A stretch of 64,000 nt of DNA. Source: a virus. A program made the translations under genes and the position numbers. Under the pieces are notes generated by a model that saw only the letters and a program-made list of their open reading frames with translations, did no database searches and was not told the origin of the DNA. Below, one piece after another: positions 1 to 29,700 of the stretch (its first letter is position 1; every line of letters begins with the position of its first letter). The DNA is taken from positions 1 through 64,000 of IMG/VR virus record IMGVR_UViG_3300033148_000573; one strand, written 5' to 3'.

Positions 1-1
1 G

Positions 2-385
2 ATTAAATTCAAGAATCACATACTTGTTGGTGTTGACACAAGTGGATCTGTAAATAATGATGAGCTTAAAGAGTTCTTTAGTGAACTTGCACATATGCAT
101 AAGACAGGTCATAAAATTACAGTAGCACAATGTGACACCCGCTTGAATAGCGTGAAAGAGTTTAATCCAAAAAAAGATTGGGAAATACATGGTCGTGGTG
201 GGACAAGCTTCCAACCAGTAGTAGATCATTTTAATGAAAACAAAGGGCAGTATACAGCTCTAATATATTTAACAGATGGTGAGGCTTATTCTCCAGAAAA
301 CTGTCCAAATAACACCTTATGGGTATTAAGCAGTATTTCTAGTATGAATGATGAACTACCAGGACAAGTAATTAAATTAAATTAA
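2..385 (+). CDS. vWA-like / DUF2201-type putative metallopeptidase, C-terminal part (5' truncated by window edge)
   Basis: The reading frame is open from base 2 and has no start inside the window, so only the last 127 codons are seen. The visible part begins with a hydrophobic strand followed by DTSGSV, a MIDAS-type DxSxS motif, and later has a GGTSFQPVVDHF segment and an LTDGEAYSP segment, which together look like a von Willebrand A fold. This is the arrangement of the DUF2201 family, in which a vWA-like C-terminal domain follows a zinc-peptidase-like N-terminal domain; that N-terminal part would lie outside the window. The gene ends 7 bases before a MoxR-type AAA+ ATPase. MoxR/vWA pairs usually act as chaperone or metal-insertion complexes. 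Function in this phage is unknown. An internal ATG at 95 is unlikely to be the start because the MIDAS motif precedes it. Confidence 0.75.
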   Translation: MKFKNHILVGVDTSGSVNNDELKEFFSELAHMHKTGHKITVAQCDTRLNSVKEFNPKKDWEIHGRGGTSFQPVVDHFNENKGQYTALIYLTDGEAYSPENCPNNTLWVLSSISSMNDELPGQVIKLN

Positions 386-392
386 TAGAAAA

Positions 393-1598
393 ATGGCACA
401 AGTAAATTTAAATGTAACAGAGTTAAAGGGGTTTGTAAATCACATAATTGCTAATAACAGATATTTGCAAGAAGCAGGTAAGAATTCTGTATCCGTAGAA
501 GTTGTAGGTGAATCAGGTATTGGTAAGACTTCTACTATAGTAGAGCTTGCTCAAGATAATAACCTAAAGTTTGTAAAGCTTAATTTAGCTCAGATAGAAG
601 AACTAGGTGACTTAGTTGGTTTCCCTGTACGTCAATTTCAGATGTATAAAGAGAAGCAAGTACCTGCAAAGAAGATTGATGACATATCTTATACAGCAGC
701 ACAAAGAGCTGCAGCATCATCAGATTTAGCTAATCTTAAAACTACTACTAAAAAAGTTGGTATGTGGGTTGATGAACTTGCCGTACAAGAGTATCTAAAG
801 AATGGATACAAAATGACAGGTAAGAACAGAATGTCTTATTGTGCTCCTGAATGGATTGCAGATGCAAAAGTGGAATTGATTGATAGACAATCTTATATCT
901 CATGGACATTACCAAAAGACTGGCACATAATTTTGACAGCAAATCCGGATAACGGTGATTATATGGTTAACAGTGTAGATAGTGCACAAAAGACTAGATA
1001 TGTAACGGCTAACCTTAAGTTTGATGTTAATGTATGGGCACAATGGGCTGAGGGTGCAGGTATTGATACACGTTGTATTAACTTCCTATTGCTCCATCCA
1101 GAGTTAGTAACACAAGAGACTAATGCAAGATCAATTACTACATTCTTTAATGCAATATCAAGCTTTGATTCTTTTGAGGATAACCTTAGTATGATTCAGA
1201 TGATTGGTGAAGGTAGTGTTGGTGATGCTTTTGCTTCTATGTTTACAACCTTTATTAATAATAAGCTTGATAAGCTGGTAACACCTAAAGATTTGTTGAC
1301 TCATGAAAACGAATCATATATCTTGGGTGAGCTTAGAGGTTGTATTGGTAAAGATGACACGTACCGTGCAGATATTGCATCTACTCTTGCTACAAGGCTA
1401 GGTAACTTCTCAGTTGTTCATTCTAAAGATAATACAATAACACAGAAGTTAACAGACAGGCTGATAGCTTTATGTACTAAAGATTATTTTACTAATGATC
1501 TTAAGTATTTAATTGTACGTACAATTTTTAACGGTAATAAAAAGAAGTTTAACAAGTTGATGATGGTTCCTGAAATCATCCAAATGACAATGAAGTAA
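393..1598 (+). CDS. MoxR-type AAA+ ATPase
   Basis: A 401-residue ATPase with a clear Walker A motif (GESGIGKTS, about residues 39-47), a Walker-B-like strand with acidic residues (MWVDEL, about 127) and a sensor-1-like segment (ILTANPDNGDY) followed by an arginine-containing segment (SAQKTRYV). This order matches MoxR/CbbQ/CobS-like AAA+ proteins, which work as hexamers to remodel a partner, usually a vWA-domain protein. The partner here is very likely the vWA/DUF2201-like protein encoded immediately upstream. The start ATG has an A-rich leader and no Shine-Dalgarno sequence, as expected for Bacteroidetes. The next gene begins 2 bases downstream, so the two are almost certainly co-transcribed. 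The biological target in the phage cycle cannot be read from the sequence. Confidence 0.85.
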   Translation: MAQVNLNVTELKGFVNHIIANNRYLQEAGKNSVSVEVVGESGIGKTSTIVELAQDNNLKFVKLNLAQIEELGDLVGFPVRQFQMYKEKQVPAKKIDDISYTAAQRAAASSDLANLKTTTKKVGMWVDELAVQEYLKNGYKMTGKNRMSYCAPEWIADAKVELIDRQSYISWTLPKDWHIILTANPDNGDYMVNSVDSAQKTRYVTANLKFDVNVWAQWAEGAGIDTRCINFLLLHPELVTQETNARSITTFFNAISSFDSFEDNLSMIQMIGEGSVGDAFASMFTTFINNKLDKLVTPKDLLTHENESYILGELRGCIGKDDTYRADIASTLATRLGNFSVVHSKDNTITQKLTDRLIALCTKDYFTNDLKYLIVRTIFNGNKKKFNKLMMVPEIIQMTMK

Positions 1599-1599
1599 A

Positions 1600-2658
1600 A
1601 TGGCAAATAAATCAGTATATCAAAAGTTTGATGCTGATGCTTTAAAATACTTTGGACTAGAAGCTGACCCTGTATATGGGTTGGTTTCTAGTACTAGTAT
1701 TGTTGAAGTATTATGTTCACAAGATCAAACAACATATGAAAAAATAAACACTATACTAACGGTCCCTACAGAGGATGACCAAACTTTTAGAACCAAAAAG
1801 AAAGCTTTTATACTACCAAAATGTAATGTATCACAGGATAGATTGAAAGCTGCTCTTAAAGAGCATGGTATAACTGTAACAAATGATTATGAAATAGCAG
1901 ATCTAATTGTAGGTCATGATGAAATATCAACTTATAAATTATCTAATGCTGAGAATATTCCTTCTACAGTAATGATGAATAAGATATGGAATTATGAGAC
2001 TACAAAAGGAGATGTGAATGGACATGGTATTATTAAAAAGATAGGTGATTCAGGTTTGGAATGTATTATTACACCAAAGATCACAGATAATGTAAGATAC
2101 TATGATATAGATATAGAAGATAGTTTGTATGATGTCTGGATGTTAACTGGTATGGCTATAAACTTGGCTCATATAATTGATACTACAGATGTTAGTGTTA
2201 TTGATCCTGAGACAGTGCTTCATGCGTCTGCTACTAAAATGACTCTTGATGAACAGCTTCTTAGTGATCTTAAAACTCAGTTAAATTCATATGGTGATGA
2301 TAAAGCTTTAGCTCTTAAAATTGTTCCTACTATTGACTATAAGAAAAACTATCATTTATTGTGGCAGTTTGCACAAGACTGTAGTAGCATAACATATGCA
2401 GACAATAGAGATAAAGATTTGCAGTATTGGTTAGAAGCATCAAAGTTTAATGATTTTCATCGTAAAAGTGCACAAGACATGATACTATGGTTGGAGCAAG
2501 AAGAGAAACTTGATACAACAACGTTTAGATATCTTGAGCCTATAGTAAGAAGAGAAATAAGCATTCATAACAGAGACCTTTATACATTTAAAGTAGCTGT
2601 TAAAAAAGAATATCAAAAATATTTAAAACATGAAAAAAAGAGTAAGATTAAACATTAA
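1600..2658 (+). CDS. Unknown protein, first of a tandem paralogous pair
   Basis: A 352-residue soluble protein of no family I recognise. Residues about 68-105 contain ILPKCNVSQDRLKAALKEHG, then a short strand ending in EIADLIVG. The protein downstream has the same pattern (YPKLDLPRQKVDLLKEKF ... KADISIVS), so the two look like diverged tandem duplicates. The layout of a strand, a helix, a strand and ADLIVG recalls BRCT-like folds, but this is only a hint. The C-terminal half is helical, rich in W, Y and K, and contains an LALKIVPTIDYKKN segment that also has a counterpart in the neighbour. The gene starts 2 bases after the MoxR ATPase and its last 29 bases overlap the next gene, so it belongs to the same operon and may be a substrate or adaptor of the MoxR/vWA module. 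Confidence 0.7.
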   Translation: MANKSVYQKFDADALKYFGLEADPVYGLVSSTSIVEVLCSQDQTTYEKINTILTVPTEDDQTFRTKKKAFILPKCNVSQDRLKAALKEHGITVTNDYEIADLIVGHDEISTYKLSNAENIPSTVMMNKIWNYETTKGDVNGHGIIKKIGDSGLECIITPKITDNVRYYDIDIEDSLYDVWMLTGMAINLAHIIDTTDVSVIDPETVLHASATKMTLDEQLLSDLKTQLNSYGDDKALALKIVPTIDYKKNYHLLWQFAQDCSSITYADNRDKDLQYWLEASKFNDFHRKSAQDMILWLEQEEKLDTTTFRYLEPIVRREISIHNRDLYTFKVAVKKEYQKYLKHEKKSKIKH

Positions 2659-3781
2659 TATAAAATCATCTGCAATTGATGATAGCGGTAGATTAACAAA
2701 AGATGCTTTTGAATGGAATCATCTTGATGGTATGCATGTCTTTAGCAGCAATAACTGGGAAGTTAGGATGGAAGATCTAACTAAACTAGGTGTTGCTAAT
2801 TTAAAGAAAACAGTTGATTTACAAGATAAAAAGATCTATAGGTATCCTAAGTTAGATTTACCTAGACAGAAAGTTGACCTTTTGAAAGAAAAGTTTAACT
2901 GCAAAGTTATCAGAGATGCTTCTAAAGCTGATATAAGTATAGTATCTATGAAGTTTTTTGATAAATTAGTTTCTAGAGAATGGAAATCATCTATTACATA
3001 TGTAGAGTGCTATAAGATTTTAGCTGAATTAAAGAATATGGATTTGCTTTCTTCATCAGCTTTAGATGTTTTAAGAGACTTTATGTCTAATACAGATGTA
3101 AACTATAGAGTTAGTTTTAGCTATGGTTCAAACTGGAATGAAGCACAGACAGCTCAAACTGATAAAGTAAAACAAGTTATAGATCAGCTAGCATCACAAA
3201 ATAATAAATCTGCTGATCACGGTCATGATTGGATATTACCTGTAGAAAACTATGAATTGTTTGATAAAATAACAAACTCATCTACTGAAATTATTGCAGA
3301 CACAAGTATATGTGCAATAATAGATGAAGACCTTGCTGTTTTAGAAAGTGAAAAATTTGATGAGGTAGAGAAGATGGTTACCAGTAGTGATATAGATAAT
3401 AGATCATTAGCTTTAGAGATGTTGGCTAATTCCAATATTGAAAAATCTTTTGATGTAGTATCTGGTATTTATTACTGGCACTATGATTGGCTTAAAGCTA
3501 CTACAAACTGGAATACAGTTAACGTTAAGGCTTTTAGAAAAAGAATGAAGGCTTATGAAGGAAACCATAATACTCAAGGTATTTACTCTTTTAATAAGTA
3601 TCTAAATCTTTTGGCTAAAGACAGAAAATTAACTAAATTTGCTGTGGATAGTACAAGAGAAAAGCTTCATACAACATTTCTAGCTAGTTTAGTAGGACCA
3701 AGTGCAGATGTATTTAAGGTTGACTTAGATTCTTTGTACATTAATGAAGAATTAACTAATAAAATTATTTCAGATGAATAG
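2630..3781 (+). CDS. Unknown protein, second of a tandem paralogous pair
   Basis: A 383-residue protein without recognisable enzymatic motifs. It shares with its upstream neighbour the N-terminal pattern PK-x-x-x-x-x-x-K-x-x-x-L-K-E followed by a short strand and KADISIVS (about residues 79-107), and a later DNRSLALEML segment matching DDKALALKIV of the neighbour. The C-terminal third is rich in aromatic residues (IYYWHYDWLKATTNW). The start codon lies 29 bases inside the upstream gene and the stop overlaps the start of the nuclease gene, which indicates translational coupling. Its place between a MoxR/vWA pair and a nuclease suggests a shared pathway, but no function can be assigned. Confidence 0.7.
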   Translation: MKKRVRLNINIKSSAIDDSGRLTKDAFEWNHLDGMHVFSSNNWEVRMEDLTKLGVANLKKTVDLQDKKIYRYPKLDLPRQKVDLLKEKFNCKVIRDASKADISIVSMKFFDKLVSREWKSSITYVECYKILAELKNMDLLSSSALDVLRDFMSNTDVNYRVSFSYGSNWNEAQTAQTDKVKQVIDQLASQNNKSADHGHDWILPVENYELFDKITNSSTEIIADTSICAIIDEDLAVLESEKFDEVEKMVTSSDIDNRSLALEMLANSNIEKSFDVVSGIYYWHYDWLKATTNWNTVNVKAFRKRMKAYEGNHNTQGIYSFNKYLNLLAKDRKLTKFAVDSTREKLHTTFLASLVGPSADVFKVDLDSLYINEELTNKIISDE

Positions 3782-4763
3782 AAACATGGAAAGAGAAGAA
3801 GACTTTTATGCAGATAAAGATTTTGCATTTAGTTATTCTTCTCTTAACAAACTTTTATTTTCACCATCCTTGTTTTACAAGGACTATATTCTTAAACAAC
3901 GTGAGGTTAAAACAGATAAACATTTAGTAGAAGGTAAACTTGTACATTGTTTAGTGTTTGAACCTGAGAACTTAAACAAAAAGTTTAACATTGTACCCGG
4001 TAAAGCACCATCAGATAGTGTTAGAAAGGTCCTAAAAAATATGTCTTTATATACTGATGCAAAATTGTTATTTGATGTTCCATCTGAAATAGTATTGGAT
4101 TCACTCAAAGAAATGAATTTGTATCAATCTCTTAAAACAGATGAACAACGTATTGTAAAGATTATAAAAAAAGAGTTTGAACCTTATTGGGAATTCTTAT
4201 CTAATACTAATGTAGATGTTATTAATGAAGAGACACTATTAGATTGTACTGCTAAAGCTGAAGTTATAAAAGCTAATGAAGAGGTTATGAGTTTATTTAA
4301 AAATGAACAGACTGACTTTGATTTAGACCCAATAACTACATATGCAGAACAATATCTTGTTTCTGATCTAGATGGCTATCCGTTTAAATTACATGGATAT
4401 GTGGATTACTATACTGTTGACTCTGAGTCAAAGACAGTAACAATATGTGATCTTAAAACATCCGGTAAAACTGTTGATGTATTTGCAGAAAGCGTAGACT
4501 TTTATAATTATTGGTTGCAAGCTGCTATTTATTCTAAAATGGTTTATGATTCTCTTGGAGATGATAGAGATGATTACACTATAGAATTTAAATTTATTGT
4601 GATTGATAAGTATAATCAAGTATATGTTTTTGATGTATCTCAAGAATCTATGGGCAATTGGGCTCAAGGTCTTGGCGGTGTATTAAAAACTGCAGGATAT
4701 CACTACAATGAGAGAAACTATTCATTACCTTATGAATTATTAGTGAAAAAGGTTAAATTATAG
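3774..4763 (+). CDS. PD-(D/E)XK (RecB/Cas4-type) nuclease
   Basis: A 329-residue nuclease with the full RecB-family core. GYVDYYTV gives the first acidic residue (D211), TICDLKTSG gives the D-x-K motif (D226, K228), and YWLQAAIYSKMVYD contains the QxxxY motif that follows in RecB/Cas4/exonuclease-like enzymes. The N-terminus has FAFSYSSLNKLLFSPSLFYKDY and an EGKLVHCLVF segment, typical of the helical lead-in that carries the active-site His/Glu of this family. Proteins of this type are regularly found in the replication block of crAss-like phages and probably process DNA ends in recombination or replication. An alternative start lies four codons in (second Met). It overlaps the previous gene by 8 bases. 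Confidence 0.85.
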   Translation: MNRNMEREEDFYADKDFAFSYSSLNKLLFSPSLFYKDYILKQREVKTDKHLVEGKLVHCLVFEPENLNKKFNIVPGKAPSDSVRKVLKNMSLYTDAKLLFDVPSEIVLDSLKEMNLYQSLKTDEQRIVKIIKKEFEPYWEFLSNTNVDVINEETLLDCTAKAEVIKANEEVMSLFKNEQTDFDLDPITTYAEQYLVSDLDGYPFKLHGYVDYYTVDSESKTVTICDLKTSGKTVDVFAESVDFYNYWLQAAIYSKMVYDSLGDDRDDYTIEFKFIVIDKYNQVYVFDVSQESMGNWAQGLGGVLKTAGYHYNERNYSLPYELLVKKVKL

Positions 4764-4764
4764 T

Positions 4765-5343
4765 ATGGGCGTATATTTAGAATATTTTCAAAAAAGCAAA
4801 GTATTTCTTTATCCTTTACTAAAAATAAAGAAAGGCATTACCCGTGTACCAATACAAACGTATGTTGCATGGGATAATGTCTATTCTACTAATGATCTTA
4901 AGTTTTTGTGTGAATACAAAACTAAACAAACACCTAAGTTTAATAGTTTTGCTAAATCACATTTATTAAATCATTCTCTACTTGAAGAAGTAATAGAATT
5001 AAATGAAAATACCCAACTCTTTATTTTTGATTTTAGTAAATTTAAATCTGACTACAATAAATTCCTTAAAGGAAAATATTCACAGTATAGTTTAGATAGT
5101 AAAATCAGTATAATTGATTTCTTTGGAACACAAGATAAAATTGGATCATATGTTGAAGGTTTTCTTACACCAGAAGGTGTGCATGATGAATATGCTGAAA
5201 GCCTTGGTGTAGATATTAAATCTATAGAAGATATATATGAAGTATGTACACCTCCTGATCTTGAAAAAGAAACTTTAATTGATAATAATCATGTTATTAA
5301 CCAATTATTAAAAAATAGTTCCATATATTTGACAAATAAATAA
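4765..5343 (+). CDS. Unknown 192-residue protein
   Basis: No recognised family. The protein is rich in K, Y, F, D and S and begins MGVYLEYFQKSKVFLYPLLKI. The central part is likely mixed alpha/beta, with strands LFIFDFSKFKSDYNKFLKG and ISIIDFFGTQDKIG, and the C-terminus is acidic. There is no signal peptide or clear membrane segment. It starts one base after the nuclease stop codon and ends 7 bases before the next gene, so it belongs to the same transcription unit. Confidence 0.65.
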   Translation: MGVYLEYFQKSKVFLYPLLKIKKGITRVPIQTYVAWDNVYSTNDLKFLCEYKTKQTPKFNSFAKSHLLNHSLLEEVIELNENTQLFIFDFSKFKSDYNKFLKGKYSQYSLDSKISIIDFFGTQDKIGSYVEGFLTPEGVHDEYAESLGVDIKSIEDIYEVCTPPDLEKETLIDNNHVINQLLKNSSIYLTNK

Positions 5344-5350
5344 AATAATT

Positions 5351-5770
5351 ATGGCAAACCAAATAGGACAAAATATGATGTTAGTAAATTCTAGTTTTAG
5401 AAATGCTAAATCATTTACTTTAATCCCAGTGAGTCAAGACTCACCATATGTAGAAGCTATGTTTGACCCAACGTCAGGCATTTTAGCTGTCATCAGTAAA
5501 GTGATGAAACAATCTTACCACATGGTACCTAAATTGGATGACAACGGTCAACCAATAAGATTAAAAACACCTAATCAACAGACAGGAAAAACTGTAAAAG
5601 AAGAAAGAAGATTAGTAGATACATTTTCTGAGTTTTATCTAAGTGATAGATCTGATATAGAAACATTTATTCATATGTTTGCAGTAAATGCAGATAATTT
5701 TAATATTGAAGAATTTTTTGTTGATTTACAAAAAACAGAACCATCTAAAATTATTCTTCCGGGTCAATAG
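5351..5770 (+). CDS. Unknown 139-residue protein, last gene of the first operon
   Basis: A small protein of mixed composition (MANQIGQNMMLVNSSFRN...), with predicted strands such as SFTLIPVSQDSPYVEAMFD followed by GILAVISKVMKQ, a K/R-rich turn and a short acidic helical C-terminus. No enzymatic motif is visible. It resembles small conserved proteins found beside replication genes in Bacteroidetes phages, but I cannot name it. The A-rich leader (TAAAATAATTATGG) has no Shine-Dalgarno sequence. A hairpin terminator follows 37 bases after the stop, so it closes the operon that starts before the window. Confidence 0.65.
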   Translation: MANQIGQNMMLVNSSFRNAKSFTLIPVSQDSPYVEAMFDPTSGILAVISKVMKQSYHMVPKLDDNGQPIRLKTPNQQTGKTVKEERRLVDTFSEFYLSDRSDIETFIHMFAVNADNFNIEEFFVDLQKTEPSKIILPGQ

Positions 5771-6185: not shown

Positions 6186-6273
6186 AACTGTAAAAAGTGC
6201 AGCTAAAGCTTTAGGTATTAGTGATAGAACTTTACATGCATTTAAAGATAAACTTAAAGATAGAAAAGAATGA
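6127..6273 (+). CDS. Fis-type helix-turn-helix microprotein
   Basis: A short basic protein whose core is LALKKHKTVKSAAKALGISD followed by RTLHAFKDKL, the standard Fis/NtrC-C-terminal (HTH_8) helix-turn-helix: a first helix, AAKALGIS as the helix-turn, and RTLHAFKDKL as the recognition helix. Several in-frame starts exist (6091, 6124, 6127, 6145, 6160); I give 6127 because it keeps the overlap with the preceding gene moderate while leaving a helix before the HTH. The stop overlaps the DNA polymerase start (GAATGA). A stand-alone Fis-like HTH of about 48 residues is too small for an enhancer-binding protein and most likely acts as a small DNA-binding regulator or architectural protein beside the polymerase. 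Confidence 0.6.
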   Translation: METLIQMRERLMILALKKHKTVKSAAKALGISDRTLHAFKDKLKDRKE

Positions 6274-8261
6274 AGCATTGGGTAATGGACTATGAGACTT
6301 TATCTAATTGTTTCACCGGGGTATTTGAACATTATAAGACTACAGAAACAAAAGTCTTTGTTATTCATGACCTGCGTAATGATTTAGATGAGTTCATTAG
6401 TTTCCTAGAAGAAAACTTTAATAATAAAGAGTGGCATATATCCTATAATGGATTGGCCTTTGATGCTCAAGTCACTCACTATATAATAGATAACCATATA
6501 GATTGGTCAGATCTTAGTGGTTGTGAGATTGCTAGTATTATTTATAGATATGCCCAACGTTGTATTCAGAAATCTAACAATAAAGAATTCAGTGATTATC
6601 CACAATGGAAGATGATAATTGGTCAAATAGACATATTTAAACTTCATCATTGGGATAATCCAGCCAAGCGTTCAAGTCTTAAATGGATTCAATATAGCAT
6701 GGATTGGGAAAACATCCTTGACATGCCTATTCATCATGAGACAGAGATAACTAAACAAGAAGAAATAGATACTATACTTGAATATTGTATTAATGATGTA
6801 AGATCTACTAAAGAAATTTATAATAGATCTAAGTCACAGGTTGGTTTAAGAAAAGAACTGACCCAGACTTATAACATTAATCTGTTTAGTGCTTCTGAGC
6901 CCCGTATCAGTAAAGAACTTTTTGGATTTTATTTATCAGAAAAACTTAATATACAAAAGAGGGACCTAAAACAAATGAGAACTCATAGAACTGTAATTAA
7001 AGTTGATGATATTATATTACCATACATCTCGTTTACATCTCCTGAGTTTAAAACATTACATGATAGGTTTAAATCTCTTGAGATAGATGCAACAAGATTA
7101 AAAGGTAGTTTTAAATATCATATTAATTACAAAGATGTGAAGACTCACTTTGGTTTAGGAGGTGCACACGGTGCTGCTGCTAAAGGAGTTTATGAAAGCT
7201 CAGATGATATGATCATTATGTCTTCGGATGTAACTAGTTTTTATCCTAATCTAGCTATTAAAAACAAGTGGTCTCCTGCGCATTTTCCAGTTGACCAGTT
7301 TTGTGATCAGTATGAGTGGTTCTTTGAGGAGCGTAAGAAGATACCTAAGAGCAATCCAATGAATTATGTATACAAGATTATACTTAATTCTACTTTTGGT
7401 CTTAGTAATGATGTAAACAGCTTCTTTTATGACCCTGAGTTGTGTATGAGAATTACAATTAACGGTCAACTAACGTTGATGATGTTGTATGAACAAATAA
7501 TGGAGCGTATACCGGGTGCTGTTGCTTTATTACAAAACACAGATGGTGTAGAAACTATTATACCTAGGGAGCACTATGATTTATATATGCAAATATGTGA
7601 AGAATGGGAAAATACTACAAGTTTAAACTTAGAACATGATGAATATCAAAAGCTTGTTTTATCTGATGTAAACAATTACATTGGTGTAAACAACTTTGTA
7701 AACGTTGACATTACTAAGTGGAGAGAAGTTAAACAAAGTCAGCCTCATTACTTATTTAAGGTTGAGAATGACAAGTTTAGCTTTGCGCCCGTTAAGCTTA
7801 AAGGTAGGTTTGACTTTCATAACCTGCAGTTGCATAAGAATAAGTCTAAGCTAGTGATCCCAAAGGCCATATATCAATACTTTGTTAATGATGTGCTGCC
7901 AGAAGATTACTTAGAAGAGAATAAAAATATTCTTGACTACTGTATAGGAGGTAAATCCAAAGGTGATTGGCAACAAGTAGCCCGCAGTATATTAAACGGT
8001 GCTTATAATGAAGAGTCATTGCAGAAAATCAATAGGTATTTTATATCTAAAGAAGGTGTAAAGATTATTAAAGTCAACAAGAATGATGGACGTGAGATAC
8101 AGTTAGAATCAGGTAGATGGTTGCAAACAGTCTTTAACAAGATGGAAGTTAAACCTAAATGGTCTGATTATAATATAGATAAGTTATATTATCTTCAAGC
8201 TATTGAATCTGAGATAAATAGTATACTCTCTGTAAAAACAAATCAATTAAAATTATTTTAA
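6270..8261 (+). CDS. Family B DNA polymerase with 3'-5' exonuclease
   Basis: A 663-residue polymerase. The exonuclease motifs are MDYETL (D7, E9), SYNGLAFDAQV (N60, D65) and YCINDV (Y172, D176). The polymerase motifs are DVTSFYPN (motif A, D320), YKIILNSTFG (motif B, K369) and LLQNTDGVE (motif C, D425). Motif C reads NTD rather than the usual DTD, a variant I associate with phage enzymes; the metal-binding second Asp is kept. Only 49 residues separate motifs A and B, so the fingers subdomain is very compact compared with phi29 or RB69 polymerases. The enzyme is expected to replicate the phage genome. It overlaps the HTH gene by 4 bases and is followed 4 bases later by the MazG-like gene. No intein or split is visible. 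Confidence 0.9.
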   Translation: MKHWVMDYETLSNCFTGVFEHYKTTETKVFVIHDLRNDLDEFISFLEENFNNKEWHISYNGLAFDAQVTHYIIDNHIDWSDLSGCEIASIIYRYAQRCIQKSNNKEFSDYPQWKMIIGQIDIFKLHHWDNPAKRSSLKWIQYSMDWENILDMPIHHETEITKQEEIDTILEYCINDVRSTKEIYNRSKSQVGLRKELTQTYNINLFSASEPRISKELFGFYLSEKLNIQKRDLKQMRTHRTVIKVDDIILPYISFTSPEFKTLHDRFKSLEIDATRLKGSFKYHINYKDVKTHFGLGGAHGAAAKGVYESSDDMIIMSSDVTSFYPNLAIKNKWSPAHFPVDQFCDQYEWFFEERKKIPKSNPMNYVYKIILNSTFGLSNDVNSFFYDPELCMRITINGQLTLMMLYEQIMERIPGAVALLQNTDGVETIIPREHYDLYMQICEEWENTTSLNLEHDEYQKLVLSDVNNYIGVNNFVNVDITKWREVKQSQPHYLFKVENDKFSFAPVKLKGRFDFHNLQLHKNKSKLVIPKAIYQYFVNDVLPEDYLEENKNILDYCIGGKSKGDWQQVARSILNGAYNEESLQKINRYFISKEGVKIIKVNKNDGREIQLESGRWLQTVFNKMEVKPKWSDYNIDKLYYLQAIESEINSILSVKTNQLKLF

Positions 8262-8265
8262 ACAT

Positions 8266-8610
8266 ATGGATTATTTTGAATTAGAATGTGCAGTTGAAAG
8301 CTGGGCAGAAGAAAAAGGTATTTTAGAAAAAGCAACGCCAATGGCCCAAGCTTTAAAGACATTAGAAGAAACAACTGAGCTCTGCACGGCTATCAATGCT
8401 GATGACCGTGAAGAGATCATTGATGCTATGGGTGATATTATGGTCACCCTGATTATTCAGGCTAAGATGCAAAATGTATCTTTAGAGTATTGTCTTAAGT
8501 CAGCTTATAATGTAATTTCTAAACGTACCGGTAAAATGGTTAACGGTCAGTTTGTAAAAGATATAGATATTATATCTGGTACTGAGTCAGCTTACATAAA
8601 GAATGATTAA
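8266..8610 (+). CDS. MazG-like nucleoside triphosphate pyrophosphohydrolase
   Basis: A 114-residue all-alpha NTP pyrophosphohydrolase. The metal-binding pattern is ETTELC (EExxE region, about residue 36-42) and, about 18 residues later, EIIDAMGDIMVTLII, the ExxD/GD helix of the MazG/dUTPase-like superfamily. Such enzymes convert (d)NTPs to monophosphates and pyrophosphate, cleaning the nucleotide pool or lowering alarmone levels in the host. The gene sits directly behind the DNA polymerase, and its end overlaps the radical SAM gene by 8 bases, consistent with a role in nucleotide metabolism during replication. Confidence 0.8.
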   Translation: MDYFELECAVESWAEEKGILEKATPMAQALKTLEETTELCTAINADDREEIIDAMGDIMVTLIIQAKMQNVSLEYCLKSAYNVISKRTGKMVNGQFVKDIDIISGTESAYIKND

Positions 8611-9436
8611 GGTACAAAGAACTAAGACCCTTGTAACTAAACCAAATAACAATAGTGCTAACTGCATAGCTCCCAATATTATCTACGGGTGTTTTGGCGG
8701 CTGTGTAGATACCTATTGTTATATGTCTAGGTATAATGGCAAAAGAGTCTTTGTTAATAAAAACGTTGACCAGATCTTCCAGTCTGTAGTTAATTGGGAA
8801 AAATCTTACTATAAAGAACCTGATCAACAAGACCCTATATATACTATGGTAGATGTAGCATGCAATTCAGATTTAGTTCTAATGCAAAAACATATGCCTG
8901 AACCTTTAATTGATTACCTTAAACGTTATGATGATCATCCTCAGCTTAATAGCACTATGGCCACTAAGTATCCGGGGTTGTTGAAGCTTGACGTAAAAAA
9001 GTTCAACAAACCTCCAAGAGTACGTGTAAGCCTTATGCCTCAGAAGTATTCTAATATATTAGAACCTAAGATGCAAAAGATAGAAAGTCGTATAGCTGAT
9101 GTTAACCGTCTAAAAGATTTAGGCTGGCAAGTTCATCTTAATTATAGCCCTTTAGTCTTTTATCCCGGTTGGAAAGAAGAGTATGATAAACTTTTTGCAC
9201 AGGTAAAAGAACAGGCAGGCATAAATAAATGTGAAGTTATTGCACTTACTAATCATACTAATCAAATGGCCAAGGCATCACCAGAAGCCCAGGACATGAT
9301 GAAGTATAGTTCAGAAGTAAAAAATCAAAGCGGTGTCATGAGATATCCTCTGATGCATAAAGGCCGGTTATTAAGAGAGTTTAAAGAGATATACAGTAAA
9401 TATTTTCCTTTAAATACAATAAGATATATATTTTAA
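8603..9436 (+). CDS. Spore photoproduct lyase-like radical SAM protein
   Basis: A 277-residue protein resembling SplB-type radical SAM enzymes. The N-terminus has IIYGCFGGCVDTYCYM with cysteines 30, 34 and 39, and an extra cysteine 21. The second half carries VRVSLMPQKYSNILEP, then IESRIADVNRLKDLGWQVHL and FYPGWKEEYDKLF, which closely follow the C-terminal half of spore photoproduct lyase (EERI...L..AGY, P..GW.EEY). Canonical radical SAM spacing is CX3CX2C, but here it is CX3CX4C, so cluster binding may be altered. SplB repairs a thymine photodimer of spores; a Bacteroidetes host does not sporulate, so a related DNA photolesion repair or base chemistry is more likely. It lies in the replication block after the MazG-like gene. 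Confidence 0.75.
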   Translation: MIKVQRTKTLVTKPNNNSANCIAPNIIYGCFGGCVDTYCYMSRYNGKRVFVNKNVDQIFQSVVNWEKSYYKEPDQQDPIYTMVDVACNSDLVLMQKHMPEPLIDYLKRYDDHPQLNSTMATKYPGLLKLDVKKFNKPPRVRVSLMPQKYSNILEPKMQKIESRIADVNRLKDLGWQVHLNYSPLVFYPGWKEEYDKLFAQVKEQAGINKCEVIALTNHTNQMAKASPEAQDMMKYSSEVKNQSGVMRYPLMHKGRLLREFKEIYSKYFPLNTIRYIF

Positions 9437-10369: not shown

Positions 10370-10440
10370 AGCTAATTGTTGCACTCATATTAGCTATACT
10401 CTTTTTATACATTAGTAGTCAAAACAAAATGAATAAATAG
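10366..10440 (+). CDS. 24-residue single-span membrane micro-ORF
   Basis: A GTG start at 10366 overlaps the stop of the DUF932 gene (GTGA), then encodes KLIVALILAILFLYIS followed by a polar tail (SQNKMNK) and TAG. The peptide is one hydrophobic helix with a lysine near the N-terminus and a basic C-terminus, as expected for a very small inner-membrane peptide or an N-terminal signal anchor. The stop-start overlap makes translation by coupling plausible. No family can be assigned, and it could be an accidental ORF. Confidence 0.4.
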   Translation: MKLIVALILAILFLYISSQNKMNK

Positions 10441-10497
10441 GAGATAACCAACCGGGGCCTGAGTTTTTGCATTCTTGGGCTCTGGCTCCTTATTTAC
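10432..10497 (+). other. Intergenic sequence with long-range complementarity (possible structured leader)
   Basis: TAAATAGGAG at the end of the micro-ORF can pair with CTCCTTATTTA at 10487-10497 (one bulge), and inside it GGCCTGAG can pair imperfectly with CTCTGGCT. The region lies ahead of the 63-residue membrane protein gene. It may be a weak terminator or a translational control element; there is no clear T-tract. Confidence 0.3.
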
Positions 10498-10519
10498 TCC
10501 CTTTACAAAAGAATAACAC

Positions 10520-10711
10520 ATGAAGAAATTTCTAGAATTTGCTTTGATATGGTACAGTCAACAGATGGCTATACCATTCTGGGTGATCGGACACGTACAT
10601 TTAAGCGTAAATACATATAAAGACTTGCATGAAATCATAGCTAGCCTAGGATTAAACGTACTCGTAGCTGTTGGTTTTATAATAGACTATCGTAAAAATA
10701 AAGACAAATGA
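10520..10711 (+). CDS. Small membrane protein, unknown
   Basis: A 63-residue protein with two hydrophobic stretches, FLEFALIWYSQQMAIPFWVI and IIASLGLNVLVAVGFIID, separated by a polar turn, and a lysine-rich C-terminus (YRKNKDK). This suggests a two-span inner-membrane protein with the C-terminus in the cytoplasm. It overlaps the next gene by 4 bases (ATGA), so the three small genes up to the terminator form one unit. It is not clearly a holin and no family is recognised. Confidence 0.6.
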   Translation: MKKFLEFALIWYSQQMAIPFWVIGHVHLSVNTYKDLHEIIASLGLNVLVAVGFIIDYRKNKDK

Positions 10712-10914
10712 CAAATAAAGAAAGAAAAGAAAAAGAAAGATATGCCAAGGCCGGAGTAAACTTTATACCTTGTAGTGAAGATAGTCAGATTTATAGCTGG
10801 CAAAGAACAAATAGAAAAGCAACATCAGGTGCTGCAAATGGACCATGTGGTGCATATGAGGTTAGAAAGATTGAAGATGTAATGGCTGAAAGAAGAAAAA
10901 AGAAAAAGAAATGA
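10708..10914 (+). CDS. Small basic protein, unknown
   Basis: A 68-residue, very basic protein. It begins MTNKERKEKERYAKAGVNF, has a middle part with two cysteines (FIPCSEDSQIYSWQRTNRK and ANGPCGAYEV), and ends in a run of lysines (RRKKKKK). The charge pattern suggests binding to nucleic acid. Start and stop both overlap neighbouring genes by 4 bases, which supports a real, coupled gene. No family is recognised. Confidence 0.55.
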   Translation: MTNKERKEKERYAKAGVNFIPCSEDSQIYSWQRTNRKATSGAANGPCGAYEVRKIEDVMAERRKKKKK

Positions 10915-11225
10915 TTAAAAAAGAATGGATGTTTATGGATAAAGCTGAAAAAAGAAAAGGAACTCCAGTATTCACTGGCGTATTAAAATATTTCCCGGAT
11001 GCTATTATGGAAATAGCACGTGTATCTTTACAGGGAAACAAACAACATCATCCTGATAAACCTCTTCATTGGGATCGTAATAAGTCTAATGATGATTATG
11101 ATGCATTAGCTAGACATCTAATTGATGCAGGCACAATTGATGATGATGGAATTAGGCACACCGCAAAGGTTGCTTGGCGTGCTCTTGCATGTTTACAAAA
11201 AGAACTAGAAGAAACTAGAGAATAA
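10911..11225 (+). CDS. dATP/dGTP diphosphohydrolase-type domain protein (DUF5664-like)
   Basis: A 104-residue protein made of one domain. The conserved features are KGTPVFTGVLKYFPDAIMEI, a QGNKQHHPDKPLHWDRNKS segment, DALARHLIDAG, and DDGIRHTAKVAWRALACLQ. This H/D/W-rich pattern is that of the phage family described as the N-terminal domain of dATP/dGTP diphosphohydrolase-MazG proteins. Here it stands alone, while a MazG-like enzyme is encoded separately at 8266-8610. The role is probably hydrolysis of purine dNTPs or pool cleaning. The true start may be the ninth codon (second Met-Asp) rather than the first. A strong bidirectional terminator follows. Confidence 0.75.
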   Translation: MIKKEWMFMDKAEKRKGTPVFTGVLKYFPDAIMEIARVSLQGNKQHHPDKPLHWDRNKSNDDYDALARHLIDAGTIDDDGIRHTAKVAWRALACLQKELEETRE

Positions 11226-11228
11226 AAA

Positions 11229-11250
11229 AAGCCCGGAATTAACCGGGCTT
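11229..11250. terminator. Bidirectional rho-independent terminator between convergent operons
   Basis: AAGCCCGG and CCGGGCTT form a perfect 8-bp GC-rich stem with loop AATTAA, flanked by an A-run on the left and T-rich sequence on the right. It sits between the end of the plus-strand block and the end of the minus-strand fibre gene and can stop both. Confidence 0.9.
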
Positions 11251-11269
11251 TATTCTAAAATATTACTAA

Positions 11270-13885
11270 TTATACTTTTTCATTTGAATAGAATCTAATT
11301 TCAATATTACCTTGAAGCAGACCTTTTGTACTTGCTTTATTATCTTGTTCTAGAAAATCAATCTCAACTATCTGTGGTCCTATTGCAACAGGTGCTTGTC
11401 TAAAATATAGTTCTGCAGGATCAACTCCTTCTGTTATTGGGGATCTACCGCCTACTAAACACCATACTTTTTTAGTACGTGTAGCTTCACAAGCAGTTGC
11501 AGGATCACCTGGTGTATGAATAGTAAAATTATACTGACCAGTTTTTGGTAGAGTACAAGTAACTTGACAACCTGTTGTATTTTCTAACTCAGTCACTGTT
11601 ATAGGAGAACCTTTTGGATGAGTCCATGTTGCAACATATGTTGTATAAGGTAAAGAGCCACCGCCTGATCCATTGCTAGCTGCAGTAATCTGACCTTGGG
11701 CATTTACTGTAATATCAGCATTTGTGTAATTTCCTGCAGTTACAGCAGTGTTGTCTAAGTCAACTGTTAATGTATCTGTTGCAGATACTGTAGTTGTTAA
11801 ACCAACACCACCGGCAATTTTTGCCGTATTACCTGTTGTAATATCCTCAGAAGTTCCTAAATCACCACCAAGCTTCCAACCATTGTACTCTGCAGGTATT
11901 GTTGGGAATGTCTGCAGTCTAAAAGTACCATCTATATATTGTGATGTAGTACCTTGAACGTTCCAATTAAGTTGTGTATCTGGACCACTTAAGTTAACTT
12001 CTGTTAAAGTCATTGCTACACCTGCACCGCTTGGCCATGATGTACTTAATGACTCAATACCTGAACTTGATTGAGCAAAATTAATTACAGTAGGGCTAAC
12101 ATTGTTATCCATAGTAACACCTGGTCCTGTAAACTCAAACAATCCAGACTCAGTGGTATTACCTACTTTAATGCTATTTACAACATTAGTTGATATTGCA
12201 CTTATTGTTAGTGTTTTTTCACCACTTGGATCTGTATTAACTGAACCTGATAAACCTGAACCTATTGTTATTTTATCACTCCAATATCCTGCTACAGTAT
12301 CTGCTGCATCAATTTTAAACTTAACATCTTCTGATGCCGGTGGGATAGTAGGGAATGTTTCTAATTCACCTTCTCCATTTATATACTGTCCAGCTACTCC
12401 TTTAAAGTCTATAGTTAATTTAGGCGTTGTTGTCGGATCAGTTACAGTAAAATCAATTGAATTTGCTACAACTGGAGTTACTTCAGTTGAGATACTAGTT
12501 ACTGTTCCTACATTACCTCCTGGGATTGTTGCCCAATTACCATCTTGTCTTAAGAATTGACCTGCAGTTCCTCCCGAAAGATTTAATTCTATTGTACCGT
12601 TTGATGTGATTGGAGAGCTTCCAACTTGGAAAGCTGCAATATCTGTACTTAAACCAACACTGGTTACAGTACCTCCACCACCTGATGCAATACCATAAAC
12701 AGTACCATCTATTTCTATAGAAGTTAAATCTACTGTAGGATTGCCTGGGTTACCAACTACTACAGAACCTGATCCTTCAACCCATGGTACATTAACAACA
12801 AGTTGTTTTGCATCATTAAATTGAATTCCGTATGTTCTTTGATCTACATCTGATACAAGAGCTGCTGGTTGTGCTTGTATAACATCACTCCACAATTTAC
12901 CTGTTCCAGTAATTGTAGATGTCATTACTGGACTACTAGTTGCAGATGCTTTTATTGTAACTGTATCATTACCAGCATCAATCAAATCAATTCCAGTACC
13001 TGCTTCTAGCAATACTTTACCTGCAATTGCACTATTTGAATCTAATAAACTTATAGCATAATTTGTTGTACCTGATACTTCTCCTTTTAGACTATAAGTG
13101 GTTTCTGCGGGCAAGGTAACCTTACTTGTAATTACTTGTGTTACGTGACCCCAATTATCTACTTTAACAACTCTAACAGCATCAAAACTGTCTCCAAAAT
13201 CTGGATCAACATTTTCATTAACAAAGTCTACTACTTGTTCATCATGATTAAATGTTACAGTATCTGTACCATTACCAATAGTTGTTATTTTATCACCACC
13301 AACAAAGAACACCTTAGCGTCACAACCAACAGTAAATCCACCTTCTCCTCCTACAATCCATTTACATTCGCTTGCATTGTCTTTCCAAACTACAGTACCA
13401 TCTGGTTGAGCAATAAGGACTTGACCAGGTGTTCCTTCTGATTGATTAAAGTCTAAAACTTTTGATGCTAACCATATCTTATTTGATGGATCAGAAAAAC
13501 CTAAACTAACATTACCTGCTAATTCTGAGTCTTTTTTAACAAGAAGATTACCACTAACAGCAATTGTTGTATTAGCAGCATCTTGAGTCATAATGCTATC
13601 CTTTAATGCTTTTAAACTACATACTCCATCTGTCTCAGTATAAACAGGCACATAACCTATATTTCCTGATCCATCTACAGTTCTAGTTAACCCCTTAGTT
13701 ATTTCACATACTAAATCTTGACCTTTTATTACAAAAGGCTCCATTTTTGGAGAGTAAGATGTCCCAGTATTTAATGTACTGTTTTGCTTTCTTCCAAATT
13801 CAAACCAGTCTGTTTTTAGATTAAGAGTTTTTTTGTCTTTGTTTCTTTGCAGTAGGTTTAAAACCTCTTGTATAAATACGCTCAT
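11270..13885 (-). CDS. Tail/receptor fibre-like protein (871 residues)
   Basis: A long beta-rich protein typical of a phage fibre: rich in T, S, G, V and N, with repeated units of the form GxxGQ(F/Y)(L/I)xGxGxxxTIP (GQFLRQDGNWATIP, GQYINGEGELETFPTIP, SQYIDGTFRLQTFPTIP, GQVLIAQPDGTVVW). The N-terminus (MSVFIQEVLNLLQRNKDKK) is helical and resembles that of the 329-residue protein at 15434-16423, so it may be the attachment part. The C-terminal domain has VTELENTTGCQVTC and PKTGQYNFTI, matching the end of the same 329-residue protein, and four or more cysteines. It is the last gene of the minus-strand operon, directly in front of the terminator. Likely a host-recognition fibre; no enzymatic motif seen. 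Confidence 0.75.
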   Translation of the reverse strand: MSVFIQEVLNLLQRNKDKKTLNLKTDWFEFGRKQNSTLNTGTSYSPKMEPFVIKGQDLVCEITKGLTRTVDGSGNIGYVPVYTETDGVCSLKALKDSIMTQDAANTTIAVSGNLLVKKDSELAGNVSLGFSDPSNKIWLASKVLDFNQSEGTPGQVLIAQPDGTVVWKDNASECKWIVGGEGGFTVGCDAKVFFVGGDKITTIGNGTDTVTFNHDEQVVDFVNENVDPDFGDSFDAVRVVKVDNWGHVTQVITSKVTLPAETTYSLKGEVSGTTNYAISLLDSNSAIAGKVLLEAGTGIDLIDAGNDTVTIKASATSSPVMTSTITGTGKLWSDVIQAQPAALVSDVDQRTYGIQFNDAKQLVVNVPWVEGSGSVVVGNPGNPTVDLTSIEIDGTVYGIASGGGGTVTSVGLSTDIAAFQVGSSPITSNGTIELNLSGGTAGQFLRQDGNWATIPGGNVGTVTSISTEVTPVVANSIDFTVTDPTTTPKLTIDFKGVAGQYINGEGELETFPTIPPASEDVKFKIDAADTVAGYWSDKITIGSGLSGSVNTDPSGEKTLTISAISTNVVNSIKVGNTTESGLFEFTGPGVTMDNNVSPTVINFAQSSSGIESLSTSWPSGAGVAMTLTEVNLSGPDTQLNWNVQGTTSQYIDGTFRLQTFPTIPAEYNGWKLGGDLGTSEDITTGNTAKIAGGVGLTTTVSATDTLTVDLDNTAVTAGNYTNADITVNAQGQITAASNGSGGGSLPYTTYVATWTHPKGSPITVTELENTTGCQVTCTLPKTGQYNFTIHTPGDPATACEATRTKKVWCLVGGRSPITEGVDPAELYFRQAPVAIGPQIVEIDFLEQDNKASTKGLLQGNIEIRFYSNEKV

Positions 13886-26735: not shown

Positions 26736-29700
26736 TTATATAAGACATTTAAGTCTCTCAATTATTTCTTGTTCTCCCTCTTCTGTTTGTGAAAATAAAT
26801 CACCGTATAAAGCTATTGCATCATCAAGTGTTTTTATATTTTCTCCAGAAAGCTTTTCTAAAGCAGCACTATTACCTTCTACATTTGCATCCCACCATTC
26901 TACTAAACTTGAAGCTTCTGAAATTTCTTCTGAAGCAAAAAGATCAAGTTCTAGTTGTTCTTGCTCTTGTTGTTCAAGTTCTGTAGCTTCTGGAATGCTC
27001 ATATCAGTATCTTCTATAATAGCATTTCCTGTCTCATCAAATATAGCACTATCTGTGTTAGCAGACAACTCAGCCATTATTTTTGCCATATCAGATATAT
27101 TTGTTTCTGCTGCATCTATATCTGCTTTAACTGTTACAGAATCTGTAGTTTGATTAACTATTGCTGAGTCAGAGTTTAATACTTCATTAACTTCTAGTAT
27201 AGCTCCAAGATTAGTATCAACAGGATACTCAACCTCACTAGTTTGTTGTGCTGGTTGTTCTAGTTGTGCAGCTCTATCTTGAGGTAAACTATTTTGTGTA
27301 GTTCCTTTGCCTACATTTCTTGCTTGATCATATGTAAGTCTAGGTCCTCCTACAAAACCACCACCAAATTGTTGATTAGAACCCATAGAAGGAACTTCTA
27401 AGTATTCAGTTACCTTTGCATTAGGATTATCTTTAGCAAGCAATCTAAACAAAACATAGAAATCTCTACCTTGTCTTTCAACTTTAACCCTTACAAACTC
27501 TTTTGCATTTACATGTTCAAAACTCTCAGAAGTAATAGTAAACTTATTAGGTCTAGAAACTGGGTCAAAAGTAAAGCCTTCATCAAGACTAGAAGCATCA
27601 TAAGTGACAAGCAATGGTCCTACAACATTAGATTGTAAGTATCCATATTTAAAATCTTTCATCACTTCTTCTTTAGAGATACCAAAGACACTTTCAAATT
27701 CTACTTGTCCTTTAAGTGCAGCTTCTACAGAACCAACATTCTTAAGATATTTATTCATAATAAAAGGACTCATTGCACTCATAAGACTTCCATACTTAAG
27801 CTGCAATCCATCTTTAACCATCATGTAATGCAGAATGTCTTCAGCTATTTCTCTTGTCTCAAGTGAACCATATAGTTTTGCAAAGGATGTTTGTAAATCA
27901 AGTTTATTAGATGCATTAAGTCTTCTCCATGTATCCGCTTTTACTAAATTCATTCCTGTGTTATTACCCTGAGTTCCGGCATATTGAGTACCTACAAAAT
28001 TATCTAAGAAGTAATTAGGCTCTGCACCTTGTTCAGCTCTTAGCAATTGTAAATCTTCAATTTTTTTAATCAATGATAAGTTAGTTGTACCTACAGGACC
28101 AGGATAAAGCAATGTGTTTTCTACAGAAGAATTACCAGAGCTATTATTAAGAAGATGTTGGTATGACTTAATTGTTAAATAAGATAATAGATCTTGTTCA
28201 ATACCATTTTTTGCTACATTATCAAAACCTCTTGAGTCAACATTCATTTGATTATAAGTAGGCTCTAGTATATCATTAAAGTCCTGACTCATAGTTAAAA
28301 TAGTGTTAGGTAAAAGATCATTATGTATTTGACCAAATATTTCTAAATAAGTACTCTGCCAAGTTTTGCTATTCTTACCATAAATAGGTCTGATATTCAT
28401 AGGTGCTTCCTTATCAAACAAACTAGTAATTGTCTCAATAGCATCTTTCATTTCTGGTATTGAACTAGGTAGACCTTGAGTAAGACTTGTTACTTTATTT
28501 ATTTTACCTGTAAAGTTTTTAATGTTATTAAGTCTTTCAAATAAAAATAGTATTTGAAGTCTTTCATTATTAGTTAAATCTTCAGTGCTGTCTACAGCTG
28601 TCTCTAAAAACTCATCTGATAGTTTTACAAATGGTGGTTTATTGCCACCTTCTTTTTCCTTAGCAACTAATGAGGCTAAAGATCCAATACGTTTTGTTAA
28701 AAGAGTATCTAAACCTGCATCAAATTTGTCCTCTTTATTTAAAGCTTGATCATACAAGTCTCTTATTTCAGCAGAATTTACTAATAAAATTGAAGTTCTT
28801 AGTGGGATCCCCAATGAAACCATATTACCAACTAAACCAACAGCATGAATATTAAGTCCAAACTTTGCTATTAAACGTTCTTTAGCATTATCAGTTTCCA
28901 TTGTTACTAGAGTAGAAATAATATCTTGTATTCTTTCACCATTTATTTTGTCTTTAGTAAACCCATCATATGTATTATTATTAAATTTTATAGGTCTAGC
29001 TAATTTAATATTGTACTCACGCAATAAACTTAAAGCTAAATTAGGTTTAACAATAGCACCAATTGCAGCTCCTTTGTTTGCTTCAAAGGCTTTTATCATT
29101 CCATGAAGTGTGTCAATATCTACATCAGAATCCTTTCTGCTTGCAAATAATTCTATACCCTCAACATTAGAAAGCTCATCAAATAAATCCTCTAATATTT
29201 TTAAGTCAGCTGCTTGATAAGCAATAGGTAAATCAGACTTACCTTCACCAGCATCTTGATCAATAGTCTTTAGTGTTTCACCTGTTACACCAGTATTACC
29301 TGCTAATACATATCTATAATCTAAAATGTTATTGTTTAAAACCGCCTCATTAGGTGATCCAAACTTTTTAGAATATTCTTCAAATTGTTTTTTAGTAACA
29401 GGAAGACCCAATATTAACATTGCTCTAAGAGCTTCTTCTGATATACTGTTTACACCTTGTTTATCTGTAACTCTATTTTGTTCAGAATCACTCAAAGAGT
29501 TTTCCCTTCTAATAGCCAAGGTTTCCTCCTTGTATAAAGAAGATGATGTACTATAAATATTATTAGGTTCAGAAGCTTTTTGATTCATGTACTTTATATA
29601 CTCAAAATAAGAATTACCAGAACCGTAAGCTTTAAATTCTTTATTGCTATCTAAATAGTACTCTTTTGCCAATGCATATACTTTATCAATATCAAAATCC

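Follow-up and report, generated by a model that had tools for sequence, protein, structure and literature searches.

The window analysed here, bases 1-64000 of the 85,060-bp virus contig IMGVR_UViG_3300033148_000573 from IMG/VR, begins at the contig start with a locus encoding a metallopeptidase fused to a von Willebrand factor A (vWA) domain, a MoxR-family AAA+ ATPase and two proteins without a named family, here P3 and P4. In every locus of the phage clade long enough to test, these four genes occur together and in this order. The reading preferred here, with a probability of about 0.45, is that they encode an AAA+/peptidase remodeller, with P3 and P4 as its adaptors or clients, and that its likeliest object is a replication or recombination complex. 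The genes of the unit in the window are:

2..385, + strand: vWA gene, 3′ part only, its 5′ end open at the contig start (PF09967)
393..1598, + strand: MoxR-family AAA+ ATPase, N4 gp24-like (phrog_1297 and motifs)
1600..2658, + strand: P3, 352 aa, no named family, paralogue of P4
2630..3781, + strand: P4, 383 aa, no named family, with domain order as in P3

Linkage and extent of the unit

Among P3-bearing loci with enough flank, profile searches found MoxR in 376/376, the vWA gene in 370/370, P4 in 362/362 and the nuclease gene next downstream in 340/340, the counts being of all fetched loci, in which loci from one contig can overlap. The pattern that a first-pass annotation of the window had set against its own proposal, namely the two paralogues occurring mostly without MoxR/vWA, was tested for and not found. 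Of 136 distinct P3 proteins, 122 have the four neighbours all within their own locus, and the two P3 loci in bacterial genome contigs both have the full phage-type cluster. When the DNA polymerase served as bait instead, independently of the unit, the whole set was recovered in 74/80 loci (65 distinct polymerases), and the remaining 6 are without genes at the upstream end only. P3 and P4 are spaced by at most 60 bases in all loci. The five open reading frames (ORFs) from vWA to nuclease are, as first annotated, overlapping or at most 7 bases apart in the window (gaps of 7, 1, -29 and -8 bases in order), and the median gaps across some 280-290 loci are 8, 1, -4 and -8. Tight spacing is conserved far beyond chance, though all the loci are of one phage clade.

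As to whether the five genes always co-occur, the check named at first pass, vWA-MoxR-P3-P4 are together in all testable loci; the nuclease is more than 150 bp from P4 in 26 loci, often with other genes between, so the tight unit is one of four genes and a five-gene unit was rejected. By its sequence matches, to PDDEXK_1 (1.2e-6) and DUF3799 (1.4e-6) in Pfam and to phrog_412 (5.2e-19), the nuclease is an ordinary Crassvirales PD-(D/E)XK exonuclease, a neighbour rather than a fixed member; its identity is 25.9% over 95% to that of crAss phage cr111_1 and 23-27% over 71-95% to those of gut crAss phages overall. In one contig (L363, near 10373-11437) a 354-aa ORF between P4 and the nuclease resembles a DNA ligase, by eye only.

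The peptidase and the ATPase

The vWA gene of the window is without its N-terminus because the contig edge cuts it. What remains has the DUF2201 vWA domain (PF09967, E=2.6e-18) with the metal ion-dependent adhesion site (MIDAS) motifs DTSGS, GRGGT and TDGE, and the zinc-metallopeptidase half (HELLH) falls beyond the contig start. Near-identical contigs have complete copies, such as L004:3827-4990 (387 aa), in which an N-terminal DUF2201_N metallopeptidase domain (PF13203, 2.2e-17) is followed by a C-terminal DUF2201 vWA-like domain (PF09967, 3.4e-17). HExxH is present in 121/121 vWA homologues, as are two of the MIDAS motifs, with the third in 117/121 by strict pattern; zinc-site residues H72, E73 and H76, and MIDAS residues D272, S274, S276, T328 and D352, are identical in the clade, the N4-like phage Ab09 and the Moorella phage MTATph1. 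The protein matches 517 phage records, mostly N4-like, with about 28% identity over 94% to N4 gp25-like proteins. The phrog_1314 label ‘HNH endonuclease’ was rejected for it since its Pfam domains are metallopeptidase and vWA; many phage records bear the same label, and the matched members are DUF2201 metallopeptidase-vWA proteins.

The MoxR protein matches phrog_1297 (‘ATPase’) at 8.6e-28, and has weak AAA matches in Pfam; its matches to N4 gp24-like ATPases are weak but consistent. The MoxR/vWA module and the identities of its two genes had been recognized at first pass; the metallopeptidase half and the absence of a Walker B motif had been missed. The window copy has Walker A (GESGIGKT), sensor-1 (NPDN) and arginine (QKTR) motifs. 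In its homologues Walker A and sensor 1 are present in 120/120 and the arginine finger in 118/120 by strict pattern, the corresponding residues being invariant in the alignment, and Walker B is found in 119/120 distinct proteins with the window copy as sole exception. The catalytic and metal-binding motifs of MoxR and the peptidase-vWA protein are intact across the clade. The exception lies at:

870..871, + strand: 63-nt deletion junction (gcaaaag/tggaatt, the slash marking the junction) in the MoxR gene, from homologue comparison

The 63 nt absent there correspond to the 21 residues AGGILLLDDWNRADTRFIQAV, Walker B included. The loss is probably an assembly error, since 119/120 homologues are intact and the junction is in only one other, near-identical contig and in no further viral contig. 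IMGVR contig 3300033153_000868, the same phage across 13.6 kb (1 mismatch), has 25 more nt gone from its MoxR gene at the same left edge with a different right edge. It also has a frameshift and a gap of 69 nt in vWA, and further related phages are present in its sample. The gaps in the two contigs were judged to be misassembly in the most conserved genes. That the deletion is real and the unit inactive in the window strain, perhaps through homing-endonuclease cutting at the site, is very improbable: shared left and differing right edges in two near-identical contigs, and deletions spanning codons at which relatives carry a group I intron with a GIY-YIG gene, speak for it, but contigs 99.5-99.7% identical to the window have an intact MoxR gene, and multiple gaps in the best-conserved genes of a sample with related phages are a misassembly signature.

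The introns themselves bear on constraint. A group I intron interrupts the MoxR gene at L291:4503-5572 (Rfam RF00028, 78.8 bits, E=4.7e-20), and also in L209 and L290/L216; it carries a GIY-YIG/NUMOD1 homing-endonuclease gene, and its site is directly after the Walker B codons (LLLDDWNRA/D), within the stretch deleted in the window. In the vWA gene, an intron-like insert with a LAGLIDADG gene (L309:5045-6150, also L312 and L313) is sited inside the HExxH codons (KHEL/LHIAFGH); against RF00028 this group scores 40.3 bits, below the gathering score, with E=1.6e-8. Rfam searches of whole loci at the gathering threshold missed the introns, and focused searches detected them. Homing elements at Walker B and HExxH codons are what one would expect of coding sequence that is not free to change, and their presence at both catalytic sites fits strong constraint there. 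In Escherichia phage Pollock (L335:3136-4924) the gp24-like ATPase ORF has just 85 aa, and an HNH homing endonuclease gene comes next, which suggests another homing element in the MoxR gene of an unrelated phage.

P3 and P4

The kinship of P3 and P4, claimed at first pass, is one to which BLASTP is blind (no significant match, E=2.4), and profiles were therefore needed. With profiles from 73 P3 and 87 P4 representatives, end-to-end hhalign comparison gave P=1.6e-5 over 329 columns, against 0.043-0.82 for seven control pairs, and local alignment gave P=0.0003-0.0012, with controls at 0.04 or worse. AlphaFold models of the two (mean predicted local distance difference test scores 86.4 and 86.3; predicted template modelling (TM) scores 0.70 and 0.68) share strand and helix order, with C-terminal elements offset by about 20 residues. 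Profiles and models agree in making P3 and P4 true paralogues, though very distant ones.

P3 is predicted to have an N-terminal domain, a BRCT-like core at about residues 67-140 and a helical C-terminal half. The BRCT-like core of the two proteins is a lead, from local Foldseek matches of both models to the BRCT domain of PARP-1 (prob 0.87 and 0.91) and from Pfam BRCT in 12/42 P3 members, below cut-off with a best value of 0.0083. Four viral models match P4 convincingly by fold (E 7e-10 to 5e-6, prob 1.00): an uncultured Caudovirales protein, one from the crAss-like virus ctYsL76 (A0A8S5QMV2) and two from Podoviridae sp. ctz6O13 (A0A8S5TL70/A0A8S5TKB2). As two of the matches come from one phage, ctz6O13, a P3/P4-like pair probably exists outside the clade. 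The TM-scores are about 0.3 and the likeness is therefore of local folds and their order, not of one rigid shape. These viral proteins are the sole convincing relatives on model comparison: tblastn of P3 and P4 against isolated phages gave no usable match, their profiles found chance-level matches only among PDB sequences, and Foldseek of the models against PDB gave no E below 0.001. The reductoisomerases that headed the P3 list in the last search were discarded (TM about 0.11). P3 and P4 constitute a structural family without a name.

The two also stand apart in their rate of change. Across the 97 genomes that have every one of these genes, amino-acid identity averages 0.857 for MoxR, 0.779 for vWA, 0.762 for the polymerase, 0.732 for P7 and 0.637 for the nuclease, and falls to 0.566 for P3, 0.506 for P6 and 0.351 for P4 (P6 and P7 are encoded downstream, see below). 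P4 is the fastest-evolving gene of the set, and the motor evolves far more slowly than either P3 or P4. Divergence of this kind against a conserved motor suits target-facing parts. A narrower proposal, tentative and held with less confidence than the remodeller reading as a whole, is that P3 and P4 are a dedicated, fast-diversifying adaptor pair, of a new BRCT-like and helical-repeat family wider than the clade, and that they pick out which complex, of replication or of the host, is taken apart or cleaved.

The same divergence invites the idea of host takeover or counter-defence, in which P3 and P4 would recognize a variable protein of the host and present it to the ATPase/peptidase, which would take it apart or cleave it. 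The contrast of 57% and 35% identity with 86% for MoxR and 76% for the polymerase, and the retained catalytic HExxH, are in keeping with it. However, weak constraint can also give fast divergence, and P3 and P4 are always retained, which is not typical of counter-defence genes. There was no match to a known defence or anti-defence family, though no padloc scan was made. Host takeover is considered unlikely.

Genomic setting

In a near-identical contig the genes upstream of the unit are for a DNA helicase, a DnaB-like helicase, a Sak4-like annealing protein and a primase; in the window those that follow it include:

3774..4763, + strand: PD-(D/E)XK exonuclease, exonuclease VIII/RecE-like, Crassvirales type (Pfam, phrog_412)
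4765..5343, + strand: P6, 192 aa, no named family, 3′ of the nuclease throughout the clade
5351..5770, + strand: P7, 139 aa, no named family, conserved
6270..8261, + strand: phage DNA polymerase (phrog_1252, 6e-131)

The four-gene unit is within a replication/recombination gene block, and it is because of this position, between helicases, Sak4-like protein and primase on one side and exonuclease and DNA polymerase on the other, that a DNA-processing remodeller is favoured.

A rival reading is a role in virion assembly or maturation, in which the pair would fold or cut tail proteins, internal virion proteins or packaged polymerase proteins. For group 2.2 jumbo phages, which have this pair, the analogy of an archaeal virus tail led to a published proposal of such a role (PMC7824862). 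The virion-gene block of the phage encodes several giant proteins (1,900-4,600 aa) that could need chaperoning, and in Staphylococcus phage Madawaska the gene is near a baseplate gene. Against this, the virion genes are on the other strand and the unit is part of the replication block, and in most other phages examined the pair is near DNA-metabolism genes, being close to helicase or polymerase genes in N4-like Ab09, the Moorella phage and roseophage CRP-7 and to gyrase B in AR9. N4 gp24/25 are middle genes, though one roseophage has a middle-phase structural module beside genes of this type (PMC4193335). A virion function is improbable on balance, about as much so as host takeover.

An SPL-like (spore photoproduct lyase) enzyme gene is at window positions 8603-9436, and in four loci (L240, L326, L246 and L185) its homologue directly separates P4 from the nuclease. 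By analogy with NorQ/NorD, the pair might be a cofactor-insertion chaperone that opens the phage ribonucleotide reductase, or the SPL-like radical S-adenosylmethionine enzyme, for metal loading. The phage encodes NrdA and NrdB as well as the SPL-like enzyme, but the vWA partner has a peptidase motif, which NorD is not known to have. The position of the SPL gene varies, and it is in only 55 of the first-fetched loci, though many of these end before its usual place. NorQD is reported to drive metal insertion (PMC13036017). This possibility is doubtful, more so than either host takeover or virion assembly.

The source is a marine phage, crAss-like by its capsid sequence. The major capsid protein (L003) is 22.8% identical over 97% to that of csAssE-Sib, 24.3% to those of Cellulophaga phi17:2 and phi4:1 and 29.4% over 98% to that of Leptolyngbya phage Lbo-JY46, the closest isolate by capsid. 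At 26736-40559 (- strand) the window encodes a 4,607-aa protein with the motif ADFDIDK; DxDxD is a motif of the giant Crassvirales virion RNA polymerase, and the protein is probably that enzyme in its crAss-like form. The contigs of two clusters (L326 and L325) were binned with metagenome-assembled genomes, one of Campylobacteraceae and one of Pseudomonadales; they are probably co-binned phage contigs, and the hosts are putative only.

Proposed mechanism

In the remodeller envisaged, MoxR would form a ring and the vWA protein would dock through its MIDAS metal site, the two together pulling on or opening a client complex, which might in addition be cleaved by the zinc peptidase. P3 and P4 would be paired adaptors or clients bringing one target to the motor, and the likeliest target would be a DNA-replication or recombination complex, of phage or host, in the early-middle phase of infection. 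Several results weigh against this. The perfect linkage may in part be shared descent since all the loci are from one phage clade. Distance-matrix coupling, with correlations controlled for the DNA polymerase, is unremarkable, the partial correlations for P3-P4 (0.23) and P4-MoxR (0.18) being like those of other pairs. The likeness to BRCT is weak, at E 0.25-0.3 in Foldseek and 0.04 in Pfam. No P3/P4-like protein was recognized among 19 proteins near MoxR-vWA in ten other phages, and the motor therefore works elsewhere without recognizable copies of P3 or P4.

Relation to known systems

The first-pass suggestion of an undescribed phage machine does not extend to the engine. The core genes of N4-like phages include N4 gp24 and gp25, gp24 being listed as ‘unknown’ and gp25 as a vWFA domain protein (PMC4193335), and MoxR with vWA fused to a metallopeptidase is described in jumbo phages (PMC7824862). 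On sequence comparison, MoxR and the peptidase-vWA protein are a pair of the N4 gp24/gp25 type, and because that pair is already known from N4-like and jumbo phages the motor is not new. Both proteins are homologous to those of N4-like phages (Schitoviridae), the vWA protein end to end and with identical metallopeptidase and MIDAS residues, and the pair is near helicase and DNA polymerase in both. The difference is that in the window clade vWA precedes MoxR and P3/P4 come after the pair, whereas no P3/P4-like protein was recognized alongside the N4-type pairs examined. The jumbo-phage pair has the same two-protein architecture with the peptidase fused to vWA, but the window phage is crAss-like, adds the paralogous pair and has the unit in its replication block rather than in an evident virion context. 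RavA/ViaA and NorQ/NorD are, from the literature, also a MoxR-class ATPase with a vWA co-factor; in the window clade that partner is instead a DUF2201 metallopeptidase fusion.

The PD-(D/E)XK exonuclease and the replication block are shared with Crassvirales, but profile searches around the nuclease in cr111_1 and cr108_1 found no MoxR, vWA, P3 or P4, and the first 100 kb of Leptolyngbya phage Lbo-JY46 has no part of the four-gene unit. In the open literature searched no paper joins ‘crAss-like’ and ‘MoxR’, and no description was found there of the motor pair in crAss-like phages with fixed paralogous partners. The marine clade extends the gp24/gp25-type pair to crAss-like phages, and its strict tie to two candidate partners makes the gp24/gp25 question a pull-down experiment.

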